This document shows positions 9,700 to 56,432 of a stretch of DNA of 64,000 bases, one piece after another. This stretch comes from Arenicola marina (Eukaryota; Annelida; Polychaeta; Arenicolidae). A model generated the notes under the pieces. That model made no database searches, was not told the DNA's origin, and saw only the letters and a list, made by a program, of their open reading frames with translations. The position numbers and the translations under genes were made by a program. The stretch spans positions 49,078,959 through 49,142,958 of the forward strand of contig OZ025252.1 of the NCBI GenBank assembly GCA_964019135.1. The letters run 5' to 3'. Within the stretch, counting starts at the first letter, position 1. The number at the start of each line of letters is the position of its first letter.

Positions 9700-9786
9700 A
9701 TGGCGAACGACAGTGACACTGCTGGTTCTGGTGATAATTCGGCAAATACTGCCGTGGAGACCACCGATCAAGAGGTCGATGGCCAG
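9700..9786 (+). CDS. CLPTM1: CLPTM1 exon 1 (residues 1-29)
   Basis: Starts ATGGCGAACGACAGTGAC and ends ACCACCGATCAAGAG...GGCCAG before GTAATA. It encodes an acidic, Ser/Thr-rich cytosolic N-terminus (MANDSDTAG..., ending EVDGQ). The join to exon 2 is phase 0. The N-terminus of this family is poorly conserved, so assignment rests on the start context, good donor, matching phase and an open frame into exon 2. Confidence 0.8.
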
Positions 9787-24700: not shown

Positions 24701-27700
24701 TGTATTAATTAGGACTATACAATAGTGCTCATTGTATTCATGTACTGTCTGTATTAATTAGGACTATACAATAGTGCTCATTGTATTCCTGTGCTGTCTG
24801 TCTGTATCAGCCCGCAGAGCCGCAGCCACAGCCGGCAGCAGGAGGATGGGGAGGAATGGCCATGATCAAGACATTCGTTGTCCGTGGCTTCATCATCTAC
24901 ATGATCAGCAGCTTCTTCCGCAAGTCTCCAACGCCGCCTCCGGGAGATGGCGCCACGGGTCCGGTGGCCTCTGCCTGCATGAACCTCTTCCAGAAGGAAA
25001 CGGTCATGGTACGACTAACTTTAGATTTGTGATCATTGAACAAAATAAACATGCCTTCTAAAAATGGCGACAGCATGTAACTATTGCTACTAAATTTTTG
25101 CATTATGTCCATTATGTAAGATTTTGTGAAGGAAATAGGACCTTGACCGAAGTTGTCTATGAACGTATGTAGCAAACCTATATAGGTATATCATGTATAT
25201 TCTATTTATTGGCAGGATCTCTATGTGTATCATGTATGTTCTATTTATTGGCAGGATCTCTATGTGTATCTTGTATGTTCTATTTATTGGCAGGATCTCT
25301 ATGTGTATCTTGTATGTTCTATTTATTGGCAGGATCTCTATGTGTATCATGTATGTTCTATTTATTGGCAGGATCTCTATGTGTATCTCTCTGAAAATGA
25401 GGTATTCAGGGACTTCGAAAACAAGGATGCTCTGTTTTGGTTGGAAGAGGAGTTGGTATATGGGGACTGGACAGGTGGTCCAATCGGAGATGGTACCTAC
25501 GAGCGAGCAGGAAAGCTAACCATATCAGAGGTACCGGTACTTACTCTACTTGAATGTTCGCCAATTAGTATTATGCCTACAGTTGAAGTTGGATCAGACC
25601 TTCTTACTTATTGATCATGTTTTATTTGTTTCCTATATATAGTGTAGTATTTGCACAGGAATCTTGTATATCCTTGCAATGCATTATGTTTCTTTCATCT
25701 TTGCAGAATGTTCAAAACAATGGATCTCTCTATATGCATGTGTATTTGGTCAAAACTGGGATGTCTCCAAATCCGAAAGACAAGGACAATTATGACAAAA
25801 ACTATATGGTCAAGAAAACCAAACGTAAGTTTCATCCTATATATATTACATCACCACGTTTTAGATTTCTTGTTTGTTTACATTGCCTGAAAATTTGGTT
25901 GGAGGTTTATATGGCCATCCAATGTTATTGATTCCTTCTCCTCTTCCCATCCCCTGCACTTTCTGTCTCTGGTTAGAGTTATTATTGAGCTATTAACTAC
26001 ATTCAGAAATCACCATATCTGCCATATCCACCTTTTACATTGAGTTTACATTGAAAATGCTTCAGTTAAATTTGTAAAGGTTTAACATATACACTGTCAG
26101 GATGCACTTTCCTTAACTGCAGAATTAAACAAGTTCAAGAAAAGGAAGTTCCACACCTTGAAGAATCTGTTGACAGGGACCACAGACGCCCATCCTGATC
26201 TTCTTACGGTAGGTCCAAATGACACCCTTCAGATGAAGTATTATCACATATTTAGTGGATGCAAGACACCTAGTACAAAATAAGGAATTATTATCGAGCG
26301 ACTCTCTTTTGTAATTTTCAATCGTTGTAAATGAAGTGATCTGATTTGATCTGTTTTTGTCAAGGCCAAGATTCGCCAAATTTCTGAGCTAAATCCGGAT
26401 ATATGCACCAATGGCCTAAGGCTAGCCTTGCTCCAGAATGTTAAAACTATTATAGATCATTTCTAAATTTGGCTGGTTGAGAACTACTGCCATTATTTCT
26501 GCCCTACGAGTGACGCCAGCGTGTGGCACTGAAGGATACGTTACCGCTCCACGTTAGTAGTTGCTCTACATGTTTTATGTGTTAAATATCGCGTTTTATC
26601 GTTTACAGAATTCGAATGAAACAAAGTATGAAGTGCTATCGCACTGGCACCCCAACCTGACCATCAACATAGTGGATGACCATACGCCGTGGGTGAAAGG
26701 ATCTGTTCCCGCGCCACTCGATAACTGTAAGTCTGCCGCCAGATATGGTACCACTCGATAACTGTAAATCTGCCGCCAGACATGGCACCACTCGATAACT
26801 GTAATTCTGCCACCAGACATGGCACCACTCGATCACCAGACATGGCACCACTCGATAACTAAGTTTGCCACCAGACATGGCCCCACTCGATAACTGTAAG
26901 TCTGCCACCAGACATGGCACCACTCGATAACTGTAAGTCTGCCGCCAGACATGGCACCCCTCGATAACTGTAAGTCTGCCGCCAGACATGGCACCACTCG
27001 ATCACCCGACATGGCACAACTCGATAACTGTAAGTCTGCCACCAGACATGGCACCACTCGCTAACTGTAAGTCTGCCACCAGACATGGCACCACTCGATA
27101 ACTGTAAGTCTGCCACCAGACATGGCACCACTCGATAACTGTAAGTCTGCCGCCAGACATGGCCCCACTCGATAACTGTAAATGTGCCGCCAAACATGGC
27201 ACCACTCGATAACTGTAATTCTGCCACCAGACATGGCCCCACTCGATAACTGTAAGTCTGCCACCAGACATGGCACCACTCGATAACTGTAAGTGCCACC
27301 AGACATGGCACCACTCGATAACTGTAAGTCTGCCGCCAGACATGGCACCACTCGATCACCAGACATGGCACCACTCAATAACTGTAAGTCTGCCACCAGA
27401 CATTGCACCCCTCGATAACTAAGTCTGCCGCCAGACATGGCACCACTCGATCACCCGACATGGCACCACTCGATAACTGTAAGTCTGCCACCAGACATGG
27501 CACCACTCGCTAACTGTAAGTCTGCCAGCAGACATAGCACCACTCGCTAACTGTAAGTCTGCCGCCAGACATGGCACCACTCGATCACCAGACATGGCAC
27601 CACTCAATAACTGTAAGTCTGCCACCAGACATTGCACTCCTCGATAACTGTAAGTCTGCCGCCAGACATGGCACCACTCGATCAACCGACATGGCACCAC

Positions 27701-30700
27701 TCGATAACTGTAAGTCTGCCACCAGACATGGCACCACTCGCTAACTGTAAGTCTGCCACCAGACATGGCACCACTTGCTTACTGTAAATCTGCCACCAGA
27801 CATGGCACCACTCGCTAACTGTAAGTCTGCCACCCGACATGTCACCACTCGATCACCAGACATGGCACCACTCGATAACTGTAAGTCTGCCACCAGACAT
27901 GGCACCACTCGATAAATGTAAGTCTGCCGCCAGGCATGGCACCACTCGATCACCCGACATGGCCCCACTCGATAACTGTAAGTCTGCCGCCAGACATAGC
28001 ACCACTCGATAACTGTAAGTCTGCCACCAGACATGGCACCACTCGATAACTGTAAGTCTGCCGCCAGACATGGCACCACTCGATCACCAGACATGGCACC
28101 ACTCAATAACTGTAAGTCTGCCACCAGACATTGCACCCCTCGATAACTGTAAGTCTGCCGCCAGGCATGGCACCACTCGATCACCCGACATGGCACCACT
28201 CGATAACTGTAAGTCTGCCACCAGACATGGCACCACTCGCTAACTGTAAGTCTGCCACCAGACATGGCACCACTCGCTAACTGTAAGTCTGCCGCCAGAC
28301 ATGGCACCACTCGATCACCAGACATGGCACCACTCAATAACTGTAAGTCTGCCACCAGACATTGCACCCCTCGATAACTGTAAGTCTGCCGCCAGACATG
28401 GCACCACTCAATCACCCGACATGGCACCACTCGATAACTGTAAGTCTGCCACCAGACATGGCACCACTCGCTAACTGTAAGTCTGCCACCAGACATGGCA
28501 CCACTCGCTAACTGTAAGTCTGCCACCAGACATGGCACCACTCGATCACCAGACATGGCACCACTTGATAACTGTAAGTCTGCCACCAGACATGGCACCA
28601 CTCTATAACTGTAAGTCTGCCGCCAGACATGGCCCCACTCGATAACTGTAAGTCTGCCGCCAGACATAGCACCACTCGATAACTGTAAGTCTGCCACCAG
28701 ACATGGCACCACTCGATAACTGTAAGTCTGCCGCCAGACATGGCCCCACTCGATAAATGTAAGTCTGCCACCAGACATGGCACCACTCGATAACTGTAAG
28801 TCTGCCACCAGACATGGCACCACTCGATAACTGTAAGTCTGCCTGCCAGACCTGGCACCACTCGATAATTGAAATAGCCAAATTAAAAAGTCAAAATATA
28901 AAAATTGACCTGATTATGTCTGCAATACAAACAAATTAAAGTATCTGCTGTCGAGGAGTACGTGGTGCGCTGCTCTCCTTGCATTATGTGTGTGTGGTAT
29001 TTCTGTTTTCAGATATTGAATTCAAGCAAGGGACCAATTACTATTACCCCATCGTCTACTTCAACGAGTATTGGAACCTGAATCAAGAATACCAGCCGAT
29101 CAACGACACCACCAAGTATGTGACTCGATATAACACATTTAGGTGTCCAATCAACGACACCACCAAGTATGTGACTCGATATAACACATTTAGGTGTCCA
29201 ATCAACGACACCACCAAGTATGTGACTCGATATAACACATTTAGGTGTCCAATCAACGACACCACCAAGTTTGTGACTCGATATAACACATTTAGGCGTC
29301 CAATCAACGACACCACCAAGTATGTGACTCGATATAACACATTTAGGTGTCCAATCAACGACACCACCAAGTATGTGACTCGATACAACACATTTAGGTG
29401 TCCAATCAACGACACCACCAAGTATGTGACTCGATATAACACATTTAGGTGTCCAATCAATGACACCACCAAGTATGTGACTCGATATAACACATTTAGG
29501 TGTCCAATCAACGACACCACCAAGTATGTGACTCGATACAACACATTTAGGTGTCCAATCAACGACACCACCAAGTATGTGACTCGATATAACACATTTA
29601 GGTGTCCAATCAACAACACCACCAAGTATGTGACTCGACATAACACATTTAGGTGTCCAATCAACGACACCACCAAGTATGTGACTCGATACAACACATT
29701 TAGGTGTCCAATCAACGACACCACCAAGTATGTGACTCGATATAACACATTTAGGTGTCCAATCAACGACACCACCAAGTATGTGACTCGACATAACACA
29801 TTTAGGTGTCCAATCAACGACACCACCAAGTATGTGACTCGATACAACACATTTAGGTGTCCAATCAACGACACCACCAAGTATGCGACTCGATATAACA
29901 CATTTAGGTGTCCAATCAACGACACCACCAAGTTTGTGACTCGATATAACACATTTAGGTGTCCAATCAATGACACCACCAAGTATGTGATTTGATATAA
30001 CACATTTAGGTGTCCAATCAACGACACCTCCAAGTATGTGATTCGATATAACACATTTAGGTGTCCAATCAATGACACCACCAAGTATGTGATTTGATAT
30101 AACACATTTAGGTGTCCAATCAACGACACCTCCAAGTATGTGATTCGATATAACACATTTAGGTGTCCAATCAACGACACCACCAAGTATGTGACTCGAT
30201 ATAACACAGGTGTTATTCTGGGTTTAATTTCGTAGGTGCACAGACATGCTGCGATACAAATAGCTTTATAGCGATTGATAACAAACTTAATAGATTCATA
30301 CAGAGTGGTATTAGTGACTACAATAGTGCCATGTGCTGAACACATTATTTTGTGTATGTCCGATTAACAGTTGAATGCTATTTTGCCTTATGCGTGTGTA
30401 GTTCCTTGCTGCAGACCGTCAATTGGAAATGGTTGGCGTTGTATATCAATGTAACTTCTCCTTCTGCAGGGTCCTCAATCTGACGTTGACCTTCTCGCCG
30501 CTGTCGCTGTTTAAGTGGCAGATGTACGCGGCGCAGACGATGAGGAACCGATGGTACTCCTTCCTGGGTGACGACTTCATGGAGGAGAGCGACGAGGACC
30601 AAGACTCACTGAAGGTGAGGCGCTGGCACCAGCACAAAGGCGGTCTCCTCGTCCCGTTACAACATATACGTGCAGTGGGAAACTTGTTTGATGAGATATT

Positions 30701-33700
30701 ATACTGTACAGCCCGAAGTGTTATGGATCTGTACGGTAGTAGGTGGCTGACGTTGGGGGAGAGGTATGGCTACTGTTACACTTAGTGATCGCGGCCTGTT
30801 TAATGTGCCCTGATCTGTTTTTCTCGCTGCAGCAAGCCCTGACGGAGACCAACCCCTATCTGCTGGGACTCACAATCATTGTCTCCATCGTCCACAGCGT
30901 CTTCGAGTTCCTTGCTTTCAAGAACGGTATGACGGCCTCCTTTTATATGTCAGTGACAGTTTAAGTCCGTTGAACCTCATAGATAACATATTGCTTCGTC
31001 TAAATATCTTAGTGTTTAAACTTCAGCACAACAATTTTTTTTTTTCGTAGAAGTATATTTTATTTGTTTTCTTTGCTGCAGACATCCAGTTTTGGCGCAA
31101 CCGGAAGTCGATGGAGGGGCTGTCCGTGCGGTCAGTGTTCTTCAACGTTTTCCAGTCGCTCGTCGTCGTCCTTTACGTCATGGACAACGAAACCAACTTC
31201 GTAGTGCGCTGCAGCGTCGTTGTCGGACTGGCCATCGAGATCTGGAAGATACACAAGGTCATGGACGTCAGGGTAAGACAGCCATACCACTACACAGATT
31301 AACTTGGTGGTACAGTGTGGTTGCGGGATAACATGCAGTCTGAACTCACTATGACTGACGTGTATACGCAGACAGTGTATGAGGTATGCTGGAAACTAAC
31401 TTTGGAGGCTTGGTATGTGATGTATTGAGAAGGTTTGCACTTGTAGTTTGCCTGTCATAAATGAATTGACTTTCATTATTTTCCTTTTCTTCTCATCATA
31501 TGCTGTTTTGCTAATTTCAGTTGGACAGGGAAAACCGATATTTCGGTTTGATTCCCCGACTGACGATCCACGACAAGTCGACGTACACGGAGTCTCTGAC
31601 GAGGAAGTACGACATGGTGAGTGGCGTCTCGGCCTCAGCGTCTGGCCTGGCACCCGGCGCGCTGGGCACCTACAGCATAGCAGTGGCTTAATAAACACTC
31701 CGTCTCATGGAAAGCCGCATTTCCATTGACTTATCATTAGTTTCATTATTTTTTTTGAGGGACAATTTTTCGCTGCAGCAATTTCTTGGGATAATAAATC
31801 AACTTGATAGTAACAAGGACACTGTTTGTTTACAGATGGCCTTCAAGTATCTGTCGTGATTGTCATGGTGATGTTAGACCTGATAGTAAGAAGTACACTG
31901 TTTGTTTACAGATGACCTTCAAGCTGTCGTGGTTGTCATGGTGATGTTAGACTTGATAGTAACAAGGACACTGTTTGTTTACAGATCGCCTTCAAGTATC
32001 TGTCGTGGTTGTTGTTCCCCCTGCTGGGCGCCTATGCCGTGTACTCCGTCATCTACAATGAGCACAAGGGCTGGTACTCCTGGGTCCTCAGCCTCATGTA
32101 CGGCTTCCTGCTCACCTTCGGTAAGCTTCCTGTCACTATTCTCACTAATGGTTTGTCCCTCACTCATTGTCCTCGCGTATTTTACATCTTTAGCAGTTTT
32201 ATGCTTGCCGTNNNNNNNNNNNNNNNNNNNNNNNNNNNNNNNNNNNNNNNNNNNNNNNNNNNNNNNNNNNNNNNNNNNNNNNNNNNNNNNNNNNNNNNNN
32301 NNNNNNNNNNNNNNNNNNNNNNNNNNNNNNNNNNNNNNNNNNNNNNNNNNNNNNNNNNNNNNNNNNNNNNNNNNNNNNNNNNNNNNNNNNNNNNNNNNNN
32401 NNNNNNNNNNNAGAGACGGTCAGTACCCCACCCCACCCCAACCCACCCCTTCACCTCTACCGCCTGGGCTGCTTCAGAGACGGTCAGTACCCCACCCACC
32501 CCACCCCTCACCTCTACCGCCTGGGCTGCTTCAGAGACGATCAGTACCCCACCCACCCCACCCCTCACCTCTACCGCCTGGGCTGCTTCAGAGACAGTCA
32601 GTACCCCACCCACCCCACCCCTCACCTCTACCGCCTGGGCTGCTTCAGAGACGGTCAGTACCCCACCCACCCCACCCCTCACCTCTACCGCCTGGGCTGC
32701 TTCAGAGACGGTCAGTACCCCACCCACCCCACCCCTCACCTCTACCGCCTGGGCTGCTTCAGAGACGGTCAGTACCCCACCCACCCCACCCCTCACCTCT
32801 ACCACCTGGGCTGCTTCAGAGACGGTCAGTACCCCACCCCACCCCTCACCTCTACCGCCTGGGCTGCTTCAGAGACGGTCAGTACCCCACCCCACCCCTC
32901 ACCTCTACCGCCTGGGCTGCTTCAGAGACGGTCAGTACCCCACCCCACCCCTCACCTCTACCGCCTGGGCTGCTTCAGAGACGGTCAGTACCCCACCCCT
33001 CACCTCTACCGCCTGGGCTGCTTAAGAGACGGTCAGTACCCCACCCCACCCCACCCCACCCCTCACCTCTACCGCCTGGGCTGCTTCAGAGACGGTCAGT
33101 ACCCCACCCCTCACCTCTACCGCCTGGGCTGCTTCAGAGACGGTCAGTACCCCACCCCACCCCTCACCTCTACCGCCTGGGCTGCTTCAGAGACGGTCAG
33201 TACCCCACCCCACCCCACCCCTCACCTCTACCGCCTGGGCTGCTTCAGAGACGGTCAGTACCCCACCCACCCCACCCCTCACCTCTACCGCCTGGGCTGC
33301 TTCAGAGACGGTCAGTACCCCACCCCACCCCACCCTTCACCTCTACCGCCTGGGCTGCTTCAGAGACTGTCAGTACCCCACCCCACCCCACACCTCAACC
33401 GCCTGGGCTGCTTCAGAGACGGTCAGTACCCCACCCCACCCCACACCTTAATGCCTGGGCTGCTTCAGAGACGGTCAGTACCCCACCCCACCCCACACCT
33501 CTACCGCCTGGGCTGCTTCAGAGACAGTCAGTACCCCACCCCACCCCACCCCACCCCACACCTCTACCGCCTGGCCTGCTTCAGAGACGGTCAGTACCCC
33601 ACCCCACCCCTCACCTCTACCTCCTAGGCTGCTTCAGAGACGGTCAGTACCCACCCCCCCGCCCCCACACCTCTACCGCCTGGATTGCTTCAGAGGCTGT

Positions 33701-36700
33701 CGGTACCCCACCCCACCCCACCCCACACCTCTACCGCCTGGGCTGCTTCAGAGACGGTCAGTACCCCACCCCACCCCACCCCACCCCTCACCTCTACCGC
33801 CTAGGCTGCTTCAGAGACAGTCAGTACCCACCCCACCCCACCCCACACCTCTACCACCTGGGCTGCTTCAGAGACGGTCAGTACCGCACTCACCCCACCC
33901 CACCCCCTCACCTCTACCGCCTGGGCTGCTTCAGAGACGGTCAGTACCCCACCCCACCCCACCTCTCACCTCTACCGCCTGGGCTGCTTAAGAGACGGTC
34001 AGTACCCCACCCCACCCCACCCCACCCCACCCCTCACCTCTTCCGCCTGGGCTGCTTCAGAGACGGTCAGTACCCCACCCACCCCTCACCTCTACCGCCT
34101 GGGCTGCTTAAGAGACGGTCAGTACCCCACCCCACCCCTCACCTCTACCGCCTGGGCTGCTTAGGAGACGGTCAGTACCCCACCCCACCCCAACCCACCC
34201 CCTCACCTCTACCGCCTGGGCTGCTTCAGAGACGGTCAGTACCCCACCCCACCCCACCTCTCACCTCTACCGCCTGGGCTGCTTAAGAGACGGTCAGTAC
34301 CCCACCCACCCCATCCCTCACCTCTACCGCCTGGGCTGCTTAAGAGACGGTCAGTACCCCACCCACCCCTCACCTCTACCGCCTGGGCTGCTTAAGAGAC
34401 GGTCAGTACCCCACCCACCCCTAACCTCTACCGCCTGGGCTGCTTAAGGGACGGTCAGTACCCCACCCACCCCTCACCTCTACCGCCTGGGGTGCTTAAG
34501 AGACGGTCAGTACCCCACCCATCCCTCACCTCTACCGCCTTGGGTGCTTAAGACACGGTCAGTACCCCACCCATTCCTCACCTCTACCGCCTGGGCTGCT
34601 TAAGAGACGGTCAGTACCCCACCCACCCCACCCCTCACCTCTACCGCCTGGGCTGCTTAAGAGACGGTCAGTACCCCACCCATCCCTCACCTCTACCGCC
34701 TGGGCTGCTTCAGAGACGGTCAGTACCCCACCCCACCCCACCCCACACCTCTACCGCCTGGGCTGCTTCAGAGACGGTCAGTACCCCACCCACCCCACCC
34801 CACACCTCTACCGCCTGGGCTGCTTCAGAGACGGTCAGTACCCCACCCACCCCTCACCTCTACCGCCTGGGCTGCTCAAGAGACGGTCAGTACCCCACCC
34901 CACCTCACCTCTACCGCCTGGGCTGCTTAAGAGACGGTCAGTACCCCACCCCACCCCACCCCTCACCTCTACCGCCTGGGCTGCTTCAGAGACGGTCAGT
35001 ATCCCACCCCACCCCACCTCTCACCTCTACCGCCTGGGCTGCTTAAGAGACGGTCAGTACCCCACCCCACCCCACCCACCCCTCACCTCTACCGCCTGGG
35101 CGGCTTAAGAGACGGTCAGTACCCCACCCACCCCATCCCTCACCTCTACCGCCTGGGCTGCTTAAGAGACGGTCAGTACCCCACCCACCCCTCACCTCTA
35201 CCGCCTGGGCTGCTTAAGAGACGGTCAGTACCCCACCCACCCCTCACCTCTACCGCCTGGGCTGCTTAAGGGACGGTCAGTACCCCACCCATCCCTCACC
35301 TCTACCGCCTGGGGTGCTTAAGAGACGGTCAGTACCCCACCCATCCCTCACCTCTACCGCCTGGGCTGCTTCAGAGACGGTCAGTACCCCACCCATCCCT
35401 CACCTCTACCGCCTGGGCTGCTTAAGAGACGGTCAGTACCCCACCCACCCCACCCCTCACCTCTACCGCCTGGGCTGCTTAAGAGACGGTCAGTACCCCA
35501 CCCATCCCTCACCTCTACCGCCTGGGCTGCTTCAGAGACGGTCAGTACCCCACCCCTCACCTCTACCGCCTGGGCTGCTTCAGAGACGGTCAGTACCCCA
35601 CCCCACCCCTCACCTCTACCGCCTGGGCTGCTTCAGAGACGGTCAGTACCCCACCCCACCCCACCCCTCACCTCTACCGCCTGGGCTGCTTCAGAGACGG
35701 TCAGTACCCCACCCCTCACCTCTACCGCCTGGGCTGCTTCAGAGACGGTCAGTACCCCACCCACCCCACCCCTCACCTCTACCGCCTGGGCTGCTTCAGA
35801 GACGGTCAGTACCCCACCCCACCCTTCACCTCTACCGCCTGGGCTGCTTCAGAGACTGTCAGTACCCCACCCCACCCCACACCTCAACCGCCTGGGCTGC
35901 TTCAGAGACGGTCAGTACCCCACCACCACCCCACACCTTAATGCCTGGGCTGCTTCAGAGACGGTCAGTACCCCACCCCACCCCACACCTCTACCGCCTG
36001 GGCTGCTTCAGAGACAGTCAGTACCCCACCCCACCCCACCCCACCCCACACCTCTACCGCCTGGCCTGCTTCAGAGACGGTCAGTACCCCACCCCACCCC
36101 TCACCTCTACCTCCTAGGCTGCTTCAGAGACGGTCAGTACCCACCCCCCCGCCCCCACACCTCTACCGCCTGGATTGCTTCAGAGGCTGTCGGTACCCCA
36201 CCCCACCCCACCCCACACCTCTACCGCCTGGGCTGCTTCAGAGACGGTCAGTACCCCACCCCACCCCACCCCACCCCTCACCTCTACCGCCTAGGCTGCT
36301 TCAGAGACAGTCAGTACCCACCCCACCCCACCCCACACCTCTACCACCTGGGCTGCTTCAGAGACGGTCAGTACCGCACCCACCCCACCCCACCCCCTCA
36401 CCTCTACCGCCTGGGCTGCTTCAGAGACGGTCAGTACCCCACCCCACCCCACCTCTCACCTCTACCGCCTGGGCTGCTTAAGAGACGGTCAGTACCCCAC
36501 CCCACCCCACCCCACCCCACCCCTCACCTCTTCCGCCTGGGCTGCTTCAGAGACGGTCAGTACCCCACCCACCCCTCACCTCTACCGCCTGGGCTGCTTA
36601 AGAGACGGTCAGTACCCCACCCCACCCCTCACCTCTACCGCCTGGGCTGCTTAGGAGACGGTCAGTACCCCACCCCACCCCAACCCACCCCCTCACCTCT

Positions 36701-39700
36701 ACCGCCTGGGCTGCTTCAGAGACGGTCAGTACCCCACCCCACCCCACCTCTCACCTCTACCGCCTGGGCTGCTTAAGAGACGGTCAGTACCCCACCCACC
36801 CCATCCCTCACCTCTACCGCCTGGGCTGCTTAAGAGACGGTCAGTACCCCACCCACCCCTCACCTCTACCGCCTGGGCTGCTTAAGAGACGGTCAGTACC
36901 CCACCCACCCCTAACCTCTACCGCCTGGGCTGCTTAAGGGACGGTCAGTACCCCACCCACCCCTCACCTCTACCGCCTGGGGTGCTTAAGAGACGGTCAG
37001 TACCCCACCCATCCCTCACCTCTACCGCCTTGGGTGCTTAAGACACGGTCAGTACCCCACCCATTCCTCACCTCTACCGCCTGGGCTGCTTAAGAGACGG
37101 TCAGTACCCCACCCACCCCACCCCTCACCTCTACCGCCTGGGCTGCTTAAGAGACGGTCAGTACCCCACCCATCCCTCACCTCTACCGCCTGGGCTGCTT
37201 CAGAGACGGTCAGTACCCCACCCCACCCCACCCCACACCTCTACCGCCTGGGCTGCTTCAGAGACGGTCAGTACCCCACCCACCCCACCCCACACCTCTA
37301 CCGCCTGGGCTGCTTCAGAGACGGTCAGTACCCCACCCACCCCTCACCTCTACCGCCTGGGCTGCTCAAGAGACGGTCAGTACCCCACCCCACCTCACCT
37401 CTACCGCCTGGGCTGCTTAAGAGACGGTCAGTACCCCACCCCACCCCACCCCTCACCTCTACCGCCTGGGCTGCTTCAGAGACGGTCAGTATCTCACCCC
37501 ACCCCACCTCTCACCTCTACCGCCTGGGCTGCTTAAGAGACGGTCAGTACCCCACCCCACCCCACCCACCCCTCACCTCTACCGCCTTGGCGGCTTAAGA
37601 GACGGTCAGTACCCCACCCACCCCATCCCTCACCTCTACCGCCTGGGCTGCTTAAGAGACGGTCAGTACCCCACCCACCCCTCACCTCTACCGCCTGGGC
37701 TGCTTAAGAGACGGTCAGTACCCCACCCACCCCTCACCTCTACCGCCTGGGCTGCTTAAGGGACGGTCAGTACCCCACCCATCCCTCACCTCTACCGCCT
37801 GGGGTGCTTAAGAGACGGTCAGTACCCCACCCATCCCTCACCTCCACCGCCTGGGCTGCTTCAGAGACGGTCAGTACCCCACCCATCCCTCACCTCTACC
37901 GCCTGGGCTGCTTAAGAGACGATCAGTACCCCACCCACCCCACCCCTCACCTCTACCGCCTGGGCTGCTTAAGAGACGGTCAGTACCCCACCCATCCCTC
38001 ACCTCTACCGCCTGGGGTGCTTAAGAGACGGTCAGTACCCCACCCATCCCTCACCTCTACCGCCTGGGGTGCTTAAGAGACGGTCAGTACCCCACCCCAC
38101 CCCACACCTCTACCGCCTGGGCTGCTTCAGGGACGGTCAGTACCCCACCCACCCCACCCCACACCTTTACCGCCTGGGCTGCTTCAGAGACGGTCAGTAC
38201 CCCACCCACCCCACCCCACACCTCTACCGCCTGGGCTGCTTAAGAGACGGTCAGTACCCCACCCCACCCCCTCACCTCTACCGCCTGGGCTGCTTCAGAG
38301 ACGGTCAGTACCCCACCCACCCCACCCCACCCCTCACCTCTACCGCCTGGGCTGCTTAAAAGACGGTCAGTACCCCACCCCACCCCACCCCACCCCCTCA
38401 CCTCTACCGCCTGGGCTGCTTCAGAGACGGTCAGTACCCCACCCACCCCACCCCACCCCACCCCACCTCACCTCTACCGCCTGGGCTGCTTAAGAGACGG
38501 TCAGTACCCCACCCCACCCCTCACCTCTACCGCCTGGGCTGCTTCAGAGACTGTCAGACATCGTGTTCCTGATCTACGTCTACCAGCGCTACATCTACCC
38601 AGTGGACAATGTTATGTGTCGATATTAACCCCTCATTGACTGTTGCTTGCAGACATCGTGTTCCTGATCTACGTCTACCAGCGCTACATCTATCCAGTGG
38701 ACAATGTTATGTGTCGATATTAACCCCTCATTGACTGTTGCTTGCAGACATCGTGTTCCTGATCTACGTCTACCAGCGCTACATCTACCCAGTGGACAAT
38801 GTTATGTGTCGATATTAACCCCTCATTGACTGTGGCTTGCAGACATCGTGTTCCTGATCTACGTCTACCAGCGCCACATCTACCCAGTGGACAATGTTAT
38901 GTGTCGATATTAACCCCTCATTGACTGTGGCTTGCAGACATCGTGTTCCTGATCTACGTCTACCAGCGCCACATCTACCCAGTGGACAATGTTATGTGTC
39001 GATATTAACCCCTCATTGACTGTGGCTTGCAGACATCGTGTTCCTGATCTACGTCTACCAGCGCTACATCTACCCAGTGGACAATGTTATGTGTCGATAT
39101 TAACCCCTCATTGACTGTTGCTTGCAGACATCGTGTTCCTGATCTACGTCTACCAGCGCTACATCTACCCAGTGGACAATGTTATGTGTCGATATTAACC
39201 CCTCATTGACTGTTGCTTGCAGACATCGTGTTCCTGATCTACGTCTACCAGCGCTACATCTACCCAGTGGACAATGTTATGTGTCGATATTAACCCCTCA
39301 TTGACTGTGGCTTGCAGACATCGTGTTCCTGATCTACGTCTACCAGCGCTACATCTACCCAGTGGACTATGTTATGTGTCGATATTAACCCCTCATTGAC
39401 TGTGGCTTGCAGACATCGTGTTCCTGATCTACGTCTACCAGCGCTACATCTACCCAGTGGACAATGTTATGTGTCGATATTAACCCCTCATTGACTGTTG
39501 CTTGCAGACATCGTGTTCCTGATCTACGTCTACCAGCGCTACATCTACCCAGTGGACAATGTTATGTGTCGATATTAACCCCTCATTGACTGTGGCTTGC
39601 AGACATCGTGTTCCTGATCTACGTCTACCAGCGCTACATCTACCCAGTGGACAATGTTATGTGTCGATATTAACCCCTCATTGACTGTTGCTTGCAGACA

Positions 39701-41824
39701 TCGTGTTCCTGATCTACGTCTACCAGCGCTACATCTACCCAGTGGACAATGTTATGTGTCGATATTAACCCCTCATTGACTGTGGCTTGCAGACATCGTG
39801 TTCCTGATCTACGTCTACCAGCGCTACATCTACCCAGTGGACAATGTTATGTGTCGATATTAACCCCTCATTGACTGTTGCTTGCAGACATCGTGTTCCT
39901 GATCTACGTCTACCAGCGCTACATCTACCCAGTGGACAATGTTATGTGTCGATATTAACCCCTCATTGACTGTTGCTTGCAGACATCGTGTTCCTGATCT
40001 ACGTCTACCAGCGCTACATCTACCCAGTACACTATGTTATGTGTCGATATTAACCCCTCATTGACTGTTGCTTGCAGACATCGTGTTCCTGATCTACGTC
40101 TACCAGCGCTACATCTACCCAGTTTACAATGTTATTTGTCGATATTAACCCCTCATTGACTGTTGCTTGCAAACATCGTGTTCCAGATCTTCGTCTACCA
40201 GCGCTACATCTACCCTGTGGACTATGTTATGTGTCGATATTAACCCCTCATTGACTGTCGCTTGCAGACATCGTGTTCCTGATCTACGTCTACCAGCGCT
40301 ACATCTACCCAGTTTACAATGTTATTTGTCGATATTAACCCCTCATTGACTGTGGTTTGCAGAGATCGTGTTCCTGATCTACGTCTACCAGCGCTACATC
40401 TACCCAGTTTACAATGTTATTTGTCGATATTAACCCCTCATTGACTGTTGCTTGCAGACATCGTGTTCCTGATCTACGTCTACCAGCGCTACATCTACCC
40501 AGTTTACAATGCTATGTGTCGATATTAACCCCTCACTGACTGTTTCTTGCAGACATCGTGTTCCTGATCTACGTCTACCAGCGCTACATCTACCCAGTGG
40601 ACAATGTTATGTGTCGATATTAACCCCTCGTTGACTGTTGTTTGCAGACATCGTGTTCCTGATCTACGTCTACCAGCGCTACATCTACCCAGTGGACAAT
40701 GTTATGTGTCGATATTAACCCCTCATTGACTGTTGCTTGCAGACATCGTGTTCCTGATCTACGTCTACCAGCGCTACATCTACCCAGTGGACAATGTTAT
40801 GTGTCGATATTAACCCCTCATTGACTGTTGCTTGCAGACATCGTGTTCCTGATCTACGTCTACCAGCGCTACATCTACCCAGTGGACAATGTTATGTGTC
40901 GATATTAACCCCTCATTGACTGTGGCTTGCAGACATCGTGTTCCTGATCTACGTCTACCAGCGCTACATCTACCCAGTGGACAATGTTATGTGTCGATAT
41001 TAACCCCTCATTGACTGTTGCTTGCAGACATCGTGTTCCTGATCTACGTCTACCAGCGCTACATCTACCCAGTGGACAATGTTATGTGTCGATATTAACC
41101 CCTCATTGACTGTGGCTTGCAGACATCGTGTTCCTGATCTACGTCTACCAGCGCTACATCTACCCAATGGACAATGTTATGTGTCGATATTAACCCCTCA
41201 TTGACTGTTGCTTGCAGACATCGTGTTCCTGATCTACGTCTACCAGCGCTACATCTACCCAGTGGACAATGTTATGTGTCGATATTAACCCCTCATTGAC
41301 TGTTGCTTGCAGACATCGTGTTCCTGATCTACGTCTACCAGCGCTACATCTACCCAATGGACAATGTTATGTGTCGATATTAACCCCTCATTGACTGTTG
41401 CTTGCAGACATCGTGTTCCTGATCTACGTCTACCAGCGCTACATCTACCCAGTGGACAATGTTATGTGTCGATATTAACCCCTCATTGACTGTTGCTTGC
41501 AGACATCGTGTTCCTGATCTACGTCTACCAGCGCTACATCTACCCAGTGGACAATGTTATGTGTCGATATTAACCCCTCATTGACTGTTGCTTGCAGACA
41601 TCGTGTTCCTGATCTACGTCTACCAGCGCTACATCTACCCAGTGGACAACAAGCGGGTCAACGAATACGGCGTCAGCGCGGACATGTTGCAGGGGGAGGA
41701 GAACGCTTCCGAGAATGGCGAGGCCCAGGCCATAGGGGACTCGCCAGAGGGCGCTGGGGGAGACTGCGATTCACCAGAGGGCGCCACCGAACCCAAGACC
41801 GGAGAGGAGAAAAAAAACGATTAA
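9700..41824 (+). CDS. CLPTM1: CLPTM1 orthologue (cleft lip and palate transmembrane protein 1), 14 exons, one in an assembly gap
   Basis: The CLPTM1/CLPTM1L family (Pfam CLPTM1) comprises multi-pass membrane proteins of the ER/Golgi and plasma membrane. In mammals CLPTM1 retains GABA-A receptors inside the cell, and the paralogue CLPTM1L acts as a glycolipid scramblase. The visible exons read in order against vertebrate CLPTM1: a first membrane segment in exon 2 (RGFIIYMISSFF), the luminal domain with LVYGDWT, SHWHPNLTINIVDDHTPWVK and NEYWNL, then the membrane core with ETNPYLL, IVHSVFEFLAFKN, EGLSVRSVFFNVFQS, DNETNFVV, HKGWYSWVLSLMYGFLLTF, LYRLGCFRD and IYVYQRYIYPVDNKRVNEYG. All visible exon joins keep frame with GT-AG ends. 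Exon 13 (about 57 codons) falls in the N gap. Expected length is about 640 residues, close to the human 669. The gene is unusual in that six of its splice junctions lie inside tandem repeats. Confidence 0.96.
10105..11747. mobile_element. Mutator-like DNA transposon derivative, about 360-bp terminal inverted repeats, 9-bp target duplication
   Basis: The element starts GGGCCCGGATATTTTGTA and ends with the inverse. It is bordered by identical 9-mers CAAAAAATG at 10096-10104 and 11748-11756. The inverted repeats span about 10105-10461 and 11382-11747 and are highly similar, including a palindrome CTGCGGCGCCGCAG near each end and a poly-G/poly-C run. A 9-bp duplication with long inverted repeats is the hallmark of MULEs; 8-bp KDZ/Zisupton-type elements also carry Ulp1 proteases and cannot be excluded. 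The interior (about 920 bp) keeps only the protease-PHD frame; no transposase is visible, so this is an internally deleted, non-autonomous copy. It lies in CLPTM1 intron 1. Confidence 0.85.
10763..11266 (-). CDS. Transposon-borne Ulp1/C48-type cysteine protease C-terminus plus PHD-like finger
   Basis: The frame encodes about 167 residues. The segment VWQQQQNGWDCGVFAIASL is the Ulp1/SENP-type motif: Gln of the oxyanion hole upstream, then NGWDCG with the catalytic Cys. The catalytic His and Asp would lie upstream and are not all present, so this is a C-terminal fragment (the domain is usually about 200 residues). After a basic stretch comes a zinc-finger-like tail, CSCHLPQYYDDMVQCNVCDR, then W, a Cys, and FFCSDC at the end. 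This resembles a PHD finger, although the usual His after CD-x-W-x is Phe here. The frame lies inside a Mutator-like element and likely belongs to it, not to the host. The true start is unknown; the first Met falls near the border of the right inverted repeat. Confidence 0.75.
   Translation of the reverse strand: MGGRCMYKTASTKAQQPLTPSLEIQLAQIYGHGRTSLDVILPVWQQQQNGWDCGVFAIASLIEYCSGGYRDLLKKGVIGFEFKRDMMRSCLIDIIKGKSIRSFPKFDVPSKKVKHRKIKLPLYCSCHLPQYYDDMVQCNVCDRWLFQKCVNMSVNEMDKDFFCSDCS
11876..12349 (+). mobile_element. LINE ORF2 3' end (C-terminal zinc finger) with 3' hairpin, degraded
   Basis: The translation SRLHWLGNVHYMQDKRIPKD then VLYSELVDGKRPTGWPKLRF and CKRDMKAFGIDPDSWEDLA is the conserved C-terminal region of a widespread invertebrate LINE reverse transcriptase polyprotein. 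A second frame continues into the terminal finger CDDCGKLCRSQIGLLSH. The two parts are in different frames (switch between about 12060 and 12130), so the copy is broken. The 3' end carries a small stem-loop, CGTCT-TTCGC-AGACG at 12322-12336, typical of the tail recognised by such elements. Only the last about 470 bp are present; no target duplication is found. Confidence 0.8.
12350..13590. other. Unrecognised intron 1 DNA
   Basis: AT-rich, non-repetitive. A hairpin-capable stretch, GGGACCCAGGAG ... CTCCT ... GGGTCCC, occurs at about 12637-12671. No gene or complete mobile element is recognised. Confidence 0.5.
13592..24267. repeat. 10.7-kb minisatellite, 42-44-bp unit, about 245 copies, CLPTM1 intron 1
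   Basis: The unit reads GAGGATTCCTGGGTTTCTCA, TACCAGCCATGAGGTGTGAG plus a G-run of 4-6. Variants (GTTACTCATACCAG, CTCATGTGAGCCATGAGG without the GTGTGAG segment, TGAGTGGGG) occur in mixed order. The left third is the most diverged and the right end the most homogeneous. A block of about 2 kb is present twice with an offset of 4785 bp: for instance the variant order at 14850-16130 is repeated at 19640-20920. Minus-strand open frames of up to 143 codons come from the repeat. Confidence 0.97.
24269..24810. repeat. 49-bp minisatellite ending exactly at the CLPTM1 exon 2 acceptor, 11 copies
   Basis: The unit is ACTATACAATAGTGCTCATT, GTGTTCCTGTACTGTCTGTA, TTAATTAGG. Every unit ends in a pyrimidine-rich stretch followed by TTAATTAG, an acceptor-like sequence; the last unit differs (CTGTCTGTCTGTATCAG) and its AG is the real acceptor of exon 2. 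Copies 1-7 carry GTGTTCCTG and later copies GTATTCATG, so the array has a polarity of variants. Confidence 0.95.
24811..25008 (+). CDS. CLPTM1: CLPTM1 exon 2 (residues 30-95)
   Basis: Begins PAEPQPQPAAGGWGGMAMIK and continues TFVVRGFIIYMISSFFRKSP, ending NLFQKETVM before the GTACGA donor. It contains the first hydrophobic membrane segment of the family, followed by the basic RK and a Pro-rich linker. Phase 0 at both ends. Vertebrate CLPTM1 has the same order: Pro/Gln-rich cytosolic stretch, membrane segment IISW-SS-FRR, NLFPK-T. Confidence 0.95.
25177..25380. repeat. 39-bp minisatellite duplicating the exon 3 acceptor, 5 junction copies
   Basis: The unit GTTCTATTTATTGGCAGGAT, CTCTATGTGTATCATGTAT contains the intron end (TTATTGGCAG) and the first 15 nt of exon 3 (GATCTCTATGTGTAT). 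Acceptor AGs precede positions 25216, 25255, 25294, 25333 and 25372, all 39 bp apart. In the exon 3 frame each extra unit reads DLYVYHVCSIYWQ or DLYVYLVCSIYWQ with no stop. Confidence 0.96.
25372..25530 (+). CDS. CLPTM1: CLPTM1 exon 3 (residues 96-148)
   Basis: Encodes DLYVYLSENEVFRDFENKDA then LFWLEEELVYGDWTGG and ends KLTISE. It aligns with the start of the luminal domain of vertebrate CLPTM1 (HVYISEHEHF, LVYGDWTSG). The exon uses the most downstream of five identical acceptors in this model; starting at any of the four upstream ones would add 13, 26, 39 or 52 residues in frame. Confidence 0.94.
25707..25824 (+). CDS. CLPTM1: CLPTM1 exon 4 (residues 149-188)
   Basis: Acceptor CTTTGCAG, donor GTAAGT, phase 1 at the 3' end. 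Encodes NVQNNGSLYMHVYLVKTGMS then PNPKDKDNYDKNYMVKKTK. It matches VQQNGSIYIHVYFTKSGFHP of vertebrate CLPTM1. Contains one N-glycosylation-like sequon (NNGS does not fit N-x-S/T exactly; N-G-S does). Confidence 0.95.
26123..26208 (+). CDS. CLPTM1: CLPTM1 exon 5 (residues 188-216)
   Basis: Acceptor TTAACTGCAG, donor GTAGGT. The codon split with exon 4 gives Gln, then LNKFKKRKFHTLKNLLTG and TTDAHPDLLT. It matches the basic INKYKRRRFQKTKNLLTGE segment of the family. Total length with the carried base is 29 codons, restoring phase 0. Confidence 0.94.
26609..26726 (+). CDS. CLPTM1: CLPTM1 exon 6 (residues 217-256)
   Basis: Acceptor CGTTTACAG, donor ACT|GTAAGT. Encodes NSNETKYEVLSHWHPNLTIN then IVDDHTPWVKGSVPAPLDN, the most conserved luminal block of CLPTM1. 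The exon must end at the first of many GTAAGT copies: reading on into the next unit gives CKSAARYGTTR and a stop at 26759-26761. Confidence 0.96.
26715..28870. repeat. 37-bp minisatellite duplicating the exon 6 donor, about 58 copies including short units
   Basis: The unit CACTCGATAACTGTAAGTCT, GCCGCCAGACATGGCAC contains the last 12 nt of exon 6 and a full GTAAGT donor. About one in four units is a 23-bp short form (CGATCACCAGACATGGCACC) lacking the donor. Blocks of several units recur (27346-27740, 28071-28330 and 28310-28560 share the same order of long, short, CTCAATAACT and ATTGCACTCC/ATTGCACCCC variants), pointing to repeated block duplication. The array fills most of intron 6. Confidence 0.96.
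29013..29115 (+). CDS. CLPTM1: CLPTM1 exon 7 (residues 256-290), minimal form
   Basis: Acceptor CTGTTTTCAG. The split codon makes Tyr, then IEFKQGTNYYYPIVYFNEYW, NLNQEYQPINDTT and a split Lys codon AA|G. The donor taken is the first CCAA|GTATGTGA, so that exon 8 continues VLNLTLTFSPLSLFKWQMYA, as in vertebrate PINES...FCPLSLWRWQLYAAQ. Later identical donors lie every 51 bp, each in the same phase, so the 3' end of this exon is ambiguous from sequence alone. Confidence 0.92.
29094..30210. repeat. 51-bp minisatellite duplicating the exon 7 donor, about 22 copies
   Basis: The unit CAACGACACCACCAAGTATG, TGACTCGATATAACACATTT, AGGTGTCCAAT contains the end of exon 7 (ATCAACGACACCACCAA) and a GTATGT donor. 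Fifty-one is a multiple of three, and the first 17 units have no stop in the exon frame: each reads YVTRYNTFRCPINDTTK. The rightmost units (from about 29985) change CTCGA to TTTGA, which introduces a stop. The longest continuous frame runs from 28979 to 29995. Confidence 0.96.
30470..30614 (+). CDS. CLPTM1: CLPTM1 exon 8 (residues 290-338)
   Basis: Acceptor CCTTCTGCAG, donor GTGAGG. Encodes (K)VLNLTLTFSPLSLFKWQMYA, AQTMRNRWYSFLGDDFMEES, DEDQDSLK. It matches the SFCPLSLWRWQLYAAQ ... FLGDELYEQSDEEQDSVK segment of vertebrate CLPTM1, the junction between the luminal domain and the next membrane segment. Confidence 0.96.
30833..30926 (+). CDS. CLPTM1: CLPTM1 exon 9 (residues 339-370)
   Basis: Acceptor CTCGCTGCAG, donor G|GTATGA, phase 1 at the 3' end. 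Encodes QALTETNPYLLGLTIIVSIV then HSVFEFLAFKN, a membrane segment that is almost identical in vertebrates (ETNPYLLALTIIVSIVHSVF). Confidence 0.97.
31082..31272 (+). CDS. CLPTM1: CLPTM1 exon 10 (residues 370-433)
   Basis: Acceptor CTTTGCTGCAG, donor GTAAGA. Encodes (D)IQFWRNRKSMEGLSVRSVFF, NVFQSLVVVLYVMDNETNFV, VRCSVVVGLAIEIWKIHKVM, DVR. It contains two hydrophobic segments around the invariant DNETNF loop. Very close to the family. Confidence 0.97.
31521..31616 (+). CDS. CLPTM1: CLPTM1 exon 11 (residues 434-465)
   Basis: Acceptor CTAATTTCAG, donor GTGAGT, phase 0. Encodes LDRENRYFGLIPRLTIHDKS then TYTESLTRKYDM, matching LDREHR...FPRLSFKDKSTYIES-T-YDDM in vertebrates. Confidence 0.96.
31805..32010. 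repeat. Triplicated exon 12 acceptor region, 76- and 73-bp units
   Basis: ACTGTTTGTTTACAGAT followed by GCCTTCAAGTATCTGTCGTG occurs three times, with acceptor AGs ending at 31835, 31911 and 31984. The two upstream copies have diverged downstream of the shared exon start and hit TGA in the exon frame after 7 and 10 codons, so only the third can make a full protein. This is the smallest of the junction duplications. Confidence 0.93.
31985..32120 (+). CDS. CLPTM1: CLPTM1 exon 12 (residues 466-511)
   Basis: Acceptor TTTGTTTACAG (third copy), donor G|GTAAGC, phase 1. Encodes IAFKYLSWLLFPLLGAYAVY, SVIYNEHKGWYSWVLSLMYG, FLLTF: two hydrophobic segments around the EHKGWYSWVLS motif that is nearly invariant in the family. 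Confidence 0.97.
32212..32411. other. 200-N assembly gap hiding CLPTM1 exon 13
   Basis: The run is exactly 200 N, a usual placeholder, so its true size is unknown. The family segment between LLTFG and YRLGCLRD (about 55 residues, in vertebrates starting FITMTPQLFINYKLKSVAHL) is absent elsewhere in the window and must lie here. The gap sits at the left edge of the exon 13 donor array, where assembly would fail. Confidence 0.9.
32412..38550. repeat. About 47-67-bp minisatellite duplicating the exon 13 donor, over 100 copies
   Basis: The unit CACCTCTACCGCCTGGGCTG, CTTCAGAGACGGTCAGTACC, then CCACC repeats contains the end of exon 13 (LYRLGCFRD, GAC G) and a GTCAGT donor. Length varies with the number of CCACC/CCACCC blocks. 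Two subtypes exist, CTTCAGAGAC and CTTAAGAGAC. A block of about 2.4 kb is present twice in tandem with an offset of 2490 bp: for example the rare CCCCCCCGCCCCCACAC variant at 33654 and 36144, and the same order of variants from about 33350 to 35500 and 35840 to 37990. The right end joins the exon 14 array directly. Confidence 0.96.
38551..41655. repeat. 95-bp minisatellite duplicating the exon 14 acceptor, 32 units plus the real exon
   Basis: The unit ACATCGTGTTCCTGATCTAC, GTCTACCAGCGCTACATCTA, CCCAGTGGACAATGTTATGT, GTCGATATTAACCCCTCATT, GACTGTTGCTTGCAG holds the first 52 nt of exon 14 plus the intron end. The first exon-like start is at 38558 and the real one at 41598: 3040 bp, exactly 32 units, so there is no net length change. 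Substitutions are few (GTTGC/GTGGC, GGACAA/TTTACAA). Read in the exon frame each unit gives PVDNVMCRY and a stop. Confidence 0.97.
41598..41824 (+). CDS. CLPTM1: CLPTM1 exon 14 (last coding exon)
   Basis: The last TTGCTTGCAG acceptor is followed by (D)IVFLIYVYQRYIYPVDNKRV then NEYGVSADMLQGEENASENG and an acidic Glu/Asp/Gly-rich tail ending EEKKND before TAA. It matches VVFFIYLYQRWIYRVDPTRV NEFG of vertebrates, including a lysine-rich end (KKND here, KKKD in human). The tail contains a twice-used DSPEGA motif. Confidence 0.97.
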
Positions 41825-52960: not shown

Positions 52961-53639
52961 TATTTGTCAGAAAATGTTTTACAAAGGCCGCAGAACGCGT
53001 CCGAGTGGTGAGGCGCTCGACACGCTGTGATCGCGTGAGGCCTTTGACACTCTCTGGTGACCTGTCCGCGAGCCGCGAGGAGGGGACTTCAACGGCAATT
53101 TGCCTCAGCTGGCGCGTGTCATTTGCGTTTCTGGCGCGGTGTGAGCGCTGATCGCTGGCTCATTACACACTCATTACACACGCGCGCCTTCCCATCACAG
53201 CGACAGGCCGCCGGTTACATCTGGTCCCAACACGCCGGCCAAATGCTCTCACAACGCCCAGGAATATCCACACTTCTGACTGGTGCGTGTAGCATGACAC
53301 CGGGAGTCTCAAACTGGTTTTATCGAGTTAGTAGAGAATTAGCACTACGTTTCCGCGCCACTGATACGCATCCCGATCCGTTAGCGCGGATACGTTTACG
53401 TTTCGGTTTTTCACTCTTGGGGAAGTATTTGTTACTATATGACTTAAAGTCCATCACTTGGGGGGGTATTTGTTACTAAACCACTTCCAAATACATTTCC
53501 CAGTGGTTACTAAAGCCATTTATCAGATGCAATTATTTTCCAATGTCTCTTATGCCATAAATATTAATATCTAAAGTCACCAAAATAAAGTCAAGCAGCG
53601 AACGATCCATTTCCAAACCCCCGCCCAGAGTAGAGATTT
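52961..53639 (-). other. Upstream flank of the minus-strand membrane-protein gene
   Basis: Moderately GC-rich DNA with several CpGs and no repeats, next to the start codon; presumably holds the 5' UTR and promoter. A small 23-29-bp near-repeat (GGGGAAGTATTTGTTACTA / GGGGGGTATTTGTTACTAAA) lies at 53420-53480. No clear TATA box or known motif can be assigned. Confidence 0.4.
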
Positions 53640-54990: not shown

Positions 54991-55751
54991 GAATCACTGA
55001 AAAACTTGCCCCTTTCTACTTCTACTTTTTTGGGGTAGGTCTGTGATAAAATGGCCAATATTGTTAATATTGGTGGCAAATAAATTCAATGCGTATTTGA
55101 ATTTCGTGTGCATATAGTGCAAATGGGTCAAATATATGCAAAGTAACATAAGACATTGATTTTAAGAAGGCGATCACAATAGAAACCGAATTAAATACAA
55201 CTAGAAAATAGAGTTTAAACATTTTTCTTTAAAAGTGTTAATATGTTTTTGTGTTATGTATATTGATACATGTATTACTTCTTTCGCTATCTTACTTTTA
55301 ATCAAATAAAAGCACAAACTGTAACAGACCAGTTTCTTCAGGACTAATTCTGTGATGGATTAGGACAGATGATGAAATAACCATTGCCAGAAAAATACCT
55401 TCTGAACATGGTTATTTCATTTATTTTTTCATTTTCATTTACATGGAACAAGTTAATTCCTCAACAAACAGATTTAAAGTTCAAACTTCTTTTTGAAACA
55501 ACACTTGTATAATAAATGTGAAACTATCTAAAGAGTTTACATCTTTATTGAACAATTGAATTTTTATGTAGGTTCTGACCACTAATGAAGATCTGGCCTG
55601 GCCTATGATATTTCTAAATGTGGTGAATTACGGTTGCACCTGAATAAATGAACGTAATACATCAATGCTATTTATGTAACGTTCTGTTTGCAAAGTTTCC
55701 AAAGGCTTCTGGTATAGGGCTATAAAGTTTCGTTCGCCTTCCGGTTTACTT
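54211..55751. other. Unrecognised AT-rich DNA
   Basis: Apart from the short minus-strand frame at 54732-54929, I see no gene, RNA or complete repeat. Confidence 0.45.
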
Positions 55752-55752
55752 A

Positions 55753-56432
55753 TTTTGGGGACAAACAAAGGAAGCACGTGTTCGGAACGAGTTTAGAATC
55801 TCTGCGCACACTGGGATCATGACTATCTGTGACGTAGGCGTGACGTGTCAGTTACGCAAAGAGAGAGAGACTGGGAACCAGACTACCTGCGCAAAACCCA
55901 GGCGTCGAGGGGTGGGTCCATCGCGGATCACCTAGCGATAGGACCAAGAATATTTAAGAAATTTAGCTGCAAAAGACGCATAGACGACACATTTTTCATT
56001 CTTTTGCGTCATCAAAATGACGAATATTTGTTACGACGGAACAACACGGCTGAGAAACTAACGTTTTTTTGCATTTCCTACGAAAGCGAGGCATCATGAC
56101 GTCACACGGATTCTCCCCGGTCACAACCGCAATTTCACCGCGGAGGCACGTGAGATTGTGACGTCACTCGCTGTTTGGGGAACTCGCGAAAGCCCGCATA
56201 CAGGGCTAAAGTTAGAACGCTATTTTTAGATTTTGAGTGTTTTGAAGACGGATTTTTCCTTGTTTATTCCGAAAGTTCTGCGCTTCATCGCCTCCAAATA
56301 TTTTAACGTATACCTCTCATAGCCATGTTTAGTGAAGTGGGACTCATAGTCTTTAGAATAAACCTGGAAAGAAATTGACTTGTAGCTGCCTATGTTTCAA
56401 CATGGAGCACGTGTGTTTGTTTGTCCCCAAAA
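55753..56432. repeat. 17-bp inverted repeat pair enclosing 645 bp
   Basis: TTTTGGGGACAAACAAA at 55753-55769 is the exact reverse complement of 56416-56432, and each copy is followed inwards by a CACGTG. The enclosed DNA has short palindromes (for example TTTGCGTCATCAAAATGACG). May be a decayed inverted-repeat transposon. No coding recognised. Confidence 0.5.

Follow-up and report, generated by a model that had tools for sequence, protein, structure and literature searches.

Tandem repeats whose units span an exon-intron boundary have been described in amphioxus under the name 'mirages', and involve Adh3, the globins BflGb6 and BflGb9, troponin C and PGBD5 (PMC3087553, PMC3902484). According to these accounts, mirages lie at the 5′ or 3′ ends of exons, many of their copies keep the AG or GT of the splice site, and splicing is suggested to be undisturbed (PMC3087553, PMC3902484). 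The unit lengths given are 10-72 bp for Adh3 and 150-160 bp for the globins (PMC3087553), and BflGb6 has 3 and 6 units in its two haplotypes (PMC3087553, PMC3902484). In human genes of segmental duplications, the expansion of a minisatellite of ~30 bp alters exon/intron structure, in some cases at an exon-intron boundary; in these human repeats, an exon-internal repeat has been partly turned into a new intron, with ~4 copies (PMC2812944). A related idea is the Rogers model, in which introns are gained via tandem duplication of segments bearing AG/GT (cited in PMC3087553). Within the open-licence PMC literature, we recognised by title no report of junction-spanning minisatellites in invertebrates beyond amphioxus, and no genome paper on Arenicola.

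Here we describe such arrays in 64,000 nucleotides of the genome of Arenicola marina (the window) and in further genes of the same chromosome. An initial annotation had claimed that six splice junctions of a CLPTM1 gene each sit within a minisatellite, and had attributed the DNA to a lancelet. The gene is indeed CLPTM1 (Pfam PF05602, E = 1e-150). Exons 2-12 and 14 were positioned by consensus splice sites and uninterrupted translation (Table 1), and the product of exons 2-12, spliced with the exon-side sites, is 66% identical to a CLPTM1 homologue, with alignment gaps confined to the interior of exon 2 and none at the junctions. No exon 1 was recognised among the ORFs of positions 5045-13600, and the genuine exon 13 falls within an assembly gap of 200 Ns, so that the exon 13 donor is visible only as array copies. 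No solved CLPTM1 structure was matched by sequence. A 906-bp probe from the gene had a single match in the one assembly searched (867 Mb, 762 contigs), and thus no second haplotype was found there.

The lancelet origin is ruled out by the CLPTM1 matches and tree and by NAD2. Among the best 120 CLPTM1 protein matches listed, many of which are nameless, the highest-ranking named ones come from spiralians, molluscs and annelids included, arthropod and vertebrate proteins rank below them, and no named match is from a lancelet. In a 50-row tree the protein groups with the annelids Helobdella, Lamellibrachia and Ridgeia and with nameless rows (SH-aLRT 95 and 98), the annelid Owenia being outside this group. 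The mitochondrial contig carries nad2-cox1-cox2, and its NAD2 is nearest to that of Abarenicola claparedi oceanica (65%), followed by those of the maldanids Asychis and Lumbriclymenella (47-49%). The host is therefore an annelid, and most likely belongs to the arenicolids, the lugworm family.

Table 1. Exons, assembly gap and minisatellites of the CLPTM1 gene (positions within the window)
Feature	Position	Strand	Basis or properties
44-bp minisatellite, intron 1	13590..24266	.	TRF; no junction recognised within
49-bp minisatellite, intron 1	24264..24801	+	11 copies; TRF
Exon 2	24811..25008	+	splice sites/translation; PF05602; homologue alignment
Exon 3 acceptor array	25189-25387	+	39 bp, 5.1 copies; 12-16 nt exon per unit
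Exon 3	25372..25530	+	splice sites/translation; homologue alignment
Exon 4	25707..25824	+	arrays absent from both ends
Exon 5	26123..26208	+	arrays absent from both ends
Exon 6	26609..26726	+	splice sites/translation; homologue alignment
Exon 6 donor array, AACT/gtaagt	26714-28868	+	37 bp, ~60 copies, 23/24-nt variants; 13-16 nt exon per unit
Exon 7	29013..29115	+	splice sites/translation; homologue alignment
Exon 7 donor array, CCAA/gtatgt	29099-30208	+	51 bp, 21.8 copies; 17 nt exon per unit
Exons 8-11	30470-30614, 30833-30926, 31082-31272, 31521-31616 (span 30470..31616)	+	
Exon 12 acceptor array	31802-32012	+	73/76 bp, 2.8 copies; ~27 nt exon per unit
Exon 12	31985..32120	+	splice sites/translation; homologue alignment
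200-N assembly gap	32212..32411	.	genuine exon 13 outside visible sequence
Exon 13 donor array, GACG/gtcagt	about 32412-38554	+	mostly 52-58 bp, ~110 copies
Exon 14 acceptor array	38555-41649	+	95 bp, 32.6 copies; 52 nt exon per unit
Exon 14, coding part, 226 nt	41598..41823	+	

Six arrays of CLPTM1, three at acceptors and three at donors, hold a splice site together with exon sequence, as seen with TRF, in the raw sequence and in a wrap-around alignment of the copies. The placement of the exon 3, 12 and 14 acceptors and of the exon 6 and 7 donors inside arrays was thus correct; at exon 13 the donor array proved real, but the exon to which it belongs is hidden in the gap. The AG is kept in 5 of 6 copies of the exon 3 array (the sixth being a partial copy), in 3 of 3 of the exon 12 array and in 32 of 33 of the exon 14 array. 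The GT is kept in 22 of 22 copies of the exon 7 array, in 109 of 111 of the exon 13 array and in 48 of 64 of the exon 6 array, where 13 of the 64 are the short 23/24-nt units. In intron 13, the exon 13 donor array directly abuts the exon 14 acceptor array, and the two together make up the intron. No cross-matches were found among ten array units, including the six CLPTM1 junction units and two from other genes (blastn-short, E 0.1); this rules out a common origin of the arrays and agrees with the original description of the units as unrelated.

Across exons 8-11 there are no arrays at a score of at least 50, and the 49-bp array of intron 1 leaves 9 nt between its end and the exon 2 acceptor, whose AG is outside the array. 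Some of the arrays are themselves internally duplicated. The 44-bp array of intron 1 contains an exact duplication of 1,276 bp, shifted by 4,785 bp, and the exon 13 array contains a near-perfect one at a shift of 2,490 bp (33436-35003 again at 35926-37493), made up of two exact pieces of 1,113 and 454 bp. Such long exact duplications point to recent growth by large steps, and give no more than a hint of length polymorphism or somatic instability. In the exon 12 unit, ~15 nt after the copied exon match neither flank by eye, and are perhaps filler from the first duplication.

The arrays work like amphioxus mirages, so the likeness drawn initially was apt. In six CLPTM1 cases and 15 cases from other genes (see below), the unit spans the boundary and includes true exon sequence; unit lengths over all junction arrays are about 32-95 bp, inside the range of ~10-160 bp that the amphioxus accounts cited above give for mirages; and the intact exon-side junction would fit a normal mRNA (CLPTM1 exons 2-12, and 28 introns of a dynein gene). 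(Longer TRF periods, of 98, 113, 134, 175 and 386, contain shorter sub-units.) On the other hand, the host is an annelid and not a cephalochordate, arrays reach 13 kb and ~140 copies (in the dynein gene), there are many per gene, and they are biased towards donors. Extending the name beyond cephalochordates is a matter of choice. Unlike in the human boundary repeats, it is existing introns that carry up to ~140 junction copies beside an intact exon. Similarly, the arrays share with the Rogers model the tandem duplication of a segment carrying a splice signal and exon, but here existing introns lengthen. Ordinary intronic minisatellites (VNTRs) are made of GC-rich head-to-tail units of tens of base pairs, with internal duplications. 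All of these properties recur in the lugworm arrays; what sets a junction array apart is that coding sequence and a splice site are part of its unit, and that its edge lies within the exon. What is new is therefore the annelid host, the kilobase scale, the high density and a possible hot spot at 5′ splice sites; boundary-spanning repeats themselves were already known.

Reading frame places no evident limit on the unit lengths. In CLPTM1 the periods of 39 and 51 bp are divisible by three, unlike those of 37, 73/76 and 95 bp, and the unit of the exon 13 array is variable; in the dynein gene, 4 of 10 donor arrays have periods divisible by three. Copies that are removed by splicing would be expected to behave in this way. 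The 51-nt unit of the exon 7 array corresponds to 17 codons and, read in the frame of exon 7, is free of stops as far as position 29992, and a later donor copy, if used, would add in-frame repeats of 17 amino acids. Elsewhere in the window, a minus-strand ORF of 2,092 codons (46685-52966), whose product matches no Pfam family, contains eight TRF arrays with periods of 27, 36, 36, 21, 18, 21, 36 and 48, all divisible by three, which suggests a real coding exon with minisatellites held in frame. In addition, several of 77 myosin-head matches (e.g. C7:32810158-32814321) lie within open frames of 1,000-1,760 codons; the surrounding introns may run for kilobases without a stop, with stop-free arrays as the possible reason.

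We compared these counts with a background sample of twenty random 10-kb stretches (L002-L021) from the chromosome that carries CLPTM1. Tandem arrays make up 44% of this 200 kb (102 arrays, 5.1 per 10 kb). Two of the twenty stretches (L007 and L015) are array throughout, and the share of array varies greatly from place to place on the chromosome, with 2.4% in L031 versus 40% in the adjoining L004. (Another stretch, L011, has gag-pol-like retrotransposon frames at 6841-9998, recognised by eye.) When arrays are collapsed to one unit, CLPTM1 introns measure 155-400 bp, and an evenly placed, tolerated seed (one not lying wholly within an exon) would meet a junction with a probability of 0.29-0.61. 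All six arrays in introns 2-13 lie on junctions, for which P is 0.0044, or 0.0023 with a required minimum of 9 nt of exon; these values presume even, tolerated seeding, give introns 12 and 13 assumed short lengths, and are uncorrected for the choice of a gene picked as striking. Since arrays occupy so much of random sequence and the introns are short, P for six of six is thus ~0.002-0.004, and chance is nearer than first supposed. The verdict that six in one gene is 'far beyond a curiosity' was overstated, and in a gene chosen for its striking look this result is suggestive, though short of decisive.

The expectation that the pattern would extend beyond this gene was confirmed on the same chromosome, where four of five other genes contain 15 further junction arrays, 14 at donors and one at an acceptor. 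A search of the random stretches for exons by codon usage gave 58 candidate exon ORFs. Pfam was run on 20 of these, of which nine matched, including PPP1R21, a dynein-type AAA domain, an acyltransferase, Fuseless and RALGAPB; a kinase match was below the cut-off. The PPP1R21, RALGAPB-like and dynein genes were extended by further sequence. PPP1R21 has one donor array with ~27 nt of exon, and no junction array in the extra 10 kb (L031, the array-poor stretch mentioned above). Fuseless has one acceptor array (54 bp, 6.8 copies), the RALGAPB-like gene three donor arrays, and the acyltransferase gene no arrays on junctions.

The dynein gene encodes cytoplasmic dynein 1 heavy chain (Pfam, and PDB sequences with E = 1e-132), and its 28 introns positioned by spliced alignment hold ten donor arrays and no acceptor array. 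The donor arrays start with 13-57 nt of exon. At all ten, the best-scoring donor is the exon-side copy, among candidates limited to at most 75 nt past the homology match, and the 28 introns restore coding continuity with human dynein, whose guide sequence was identical in every letter over the 220 residues compared. Because the exon-side site restores the conserved protein in both dynein and CLPTM1, the remaining copies of each array most probably serve as intron sequence.

Gene models required some judgement. Two dynein exons were placed by hand, the exons of the RALGAPB-like gene in L023, where none of the four ORFs run against Pfam matched a family, were assigned by position and by eye, and some exon ends of the RALGAPB-like, PPP1R21, acyltransferase and Fuseless genes were adjusted by eye. 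No exon was recognised in stretch L030, and the kinase exon of L005, which has no junction array, was left out of the counts. Also left out were L018, L019, L020 and other genes without identification; two ORFs whose ends could not be fixed (PPP1R21 3513-3788 and, in the RALGAPB-like gene, L023 1008-1340); introns missing a neighbouring exon; TRF rows with a period below 7; and the dynein gaps 50825-51832 and 55547-56412 (joined sequence), where arrays lie away from known exons.

The resulting test set consists of 39 complete introns of the five genes with 31 arrays, CLPTM1 being outside it. Exon sequence at a donor is overlapped by 12 of the 31 arrays, versus 4.73 expected under a GC-weighted null (P = 6e-4), 3.27 under uniform seeding with short periods (P = 2e-5) and 4.40 under uniform seeding with TRF's top period (P = 2e-4), where both the split into donors and acceptors and the unit-length subsets were picked after looking at the data. 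At acceptors, the exon is overlapped by one of the 31 arrays versus 3.55 expected (P = 0.11 for so few), and in dynein by none versus 2.85 (P = 0.042). The original proposal that splice junctions are hot spots therefore survives for donors, which may be hot spots, and fails for acceptors, which are not. The donor excess comes almost wholly from one gene: dynein contributes 10 of the 12 overlaps, and the four other genes have 2 of 8 versus 1.10 expected (P = 0.29). When the dynein intron 25075-32831 is removed, which has a 7.3-kb array away from both junctions and belongs to the 39-intron test but is outside our 28- and 38-intron sets, donors stand at 12 of 30 versus 4.55 expected (P = 3e-4).

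The dynein sequence was fetched in two parts. The first alone gave donors 4 of 12 versus 1.92 expected (P = 0.09), and the second 6 of 11 versus 1.71 (P = 0.0023), or 5 of 10 (P = 0.008) once an array already partly seen is subtracted; this second part is the only data gathered after the split had been chosen, although dynein was by then already known to be rich in junction arrays. Measured from the donor over 38 introns, 12 array edges lie within 60 bp on the exon side, followed by 5, 2, 1 and 0 per 50 bp of intron and 3 at 200-299; from the acceptor, there is one on the exon side, then 3, 4, 1 and 4 per 50 bp and 2 at 200-299. The donor:acceptor ratio is 14:1 in the test genes (P = 0.001 against evenness) and 17:4 with CLPTM1 (P = 0.007). 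The even split within CLPTM1 is atypical compared with the other genes.

The explanation that we favour, with a probability of about 0.58 for the whole, is that tandem duplications arise throughout, that seeds straddling a junction are tolerated, and that starts or retention are favoured at 5′ splice sites. Short tandem duplications would keep arising in this genome, presumably by replication slippage or end-joining repair, and some would expand into minisatellites, later growth proceeding perhaps by unequal exchange or by large internal duplication. Seeds that straddle an exon end would persist, since the normal protein can still be made with the splice-site copy next to the exon, while the remaining copies turn into intron. 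If splicing uses the exon-side site and the donor made first is the one used, donor arrays would be harmless and acceptor arrays risky, which would explain part of the asymmetry between donors and acceptors. Finally, seeds at 5′ splice sites would start or persist at some 2-3 times the frequency that intron length and GC predict. Should the surplus of donors relative to intron interiors hold, it would call for an additional cause: starts that are more frequent there, or an effect of composition that the GC weighting misses. There is also a stronger form of this explanation, which we regard as less likely than not. In it, tandem amplification truly begins preferentially at 5′ splice sites as hot spots, something tied to the direction of transcription or splicing starts the repeats, and introns grow from their 5′ ends by repeatedly copying the exon end and the donor. 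Candidate triggers would be hybrids of nascent RNA, or forks that stall where exons end.

Several alternatives could account for the same counts. One is selective survival after even seeding, with donor arrays harmless because the right donor is transcribed first and acceptor arrays harmful because wrong acceptors come first. This would suit the 14:1 ratio, the shortage at acceptors (clearest in dynein) and periods that are free of any multiples-of-three rule, as fits copies that are spliced out. However, loss at acceptors alone cannot lift donors above intron interiors, where arrays would be equally harmless, and CLPTM1 has three acceptor arrays, one of them with 32 AG-bearing copies, so that we regard selective survival by itself as somewhat unlikely.

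It is also conceivable that there is no hot spot at all, and that even seeding, dense minisatellites and short introns suffice, with CLPTM1 and dynein as chance clusters. The density of arrays in random sequence speaks for this, as do the 29-61% chance that an array in CLPTM1 meets a junction, acceptors at or below expectation, and the unremarkable donor count outside dynein. Furthermore, our first pooled test, which combined donors and acceptors, found 6 of 17 arrays on junctions versus 3.74 expected (P = 0.125, not significant). Against it stand the donor excess under the GC-weighted null, its recurrence in the second dynein fetch and the donor:acceptor ratio, and we consider a purely even process unlikely.

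Composition offers another route to an excess at donors. Array DNA has a GC content of 0.545, versus 0.447 outside arrays, and if arrays start in GC-rich DNA, exon ends and the first intron bases would be the most GC-rich part that can be duplicated harmlessly. Dynein agrees with this in that its exons (0.615) are richer than its unique intron sequence (0.445), with 0.61 in the last 50 nt of exons, 0.573 in the first 50 nt of introns and 0.504 in the last 50 nt of introns. Yet weighting by GC, with the preference measured in the random stretches, lifts the expected number of donor overlaps only from 3.27 to 4.73, and we think it rather improbable that GC bias is the whole cause. Mis-assembly of array copies is very improbable, since units vary in length and carry point changes, the same arrangement is seen with different units at many places, and many arrays end cleanly in unique intron, although N gaps lie inside or beside junction arrays (32212-32411, and L023 from 8742), so that array lengths there are uncertain.

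If the donor excess is true genome-wide, it would amount to a hot spot of mutation that has a direction and sits at a defined landmark of genes, and it is relevant to how genes can tolerate such repeats and perhaps give rise to them. Introns of this kind would in addition serve as natural experiments on how splice sites are chosen: in CLPTM1 intron 13, the spliceosome is presented with 109 donor copies that have the GT and 32 acceptor copies that have the AG, all closely similar, and the expected protein results from the outermost pair alone. The occurrence in an annelid means that the pattern is no oddity of lancelets, and it shows that conserved multi-exon genes remain readable in DNA of which 44%, in a random sample of one chromosome, is minisatellite.
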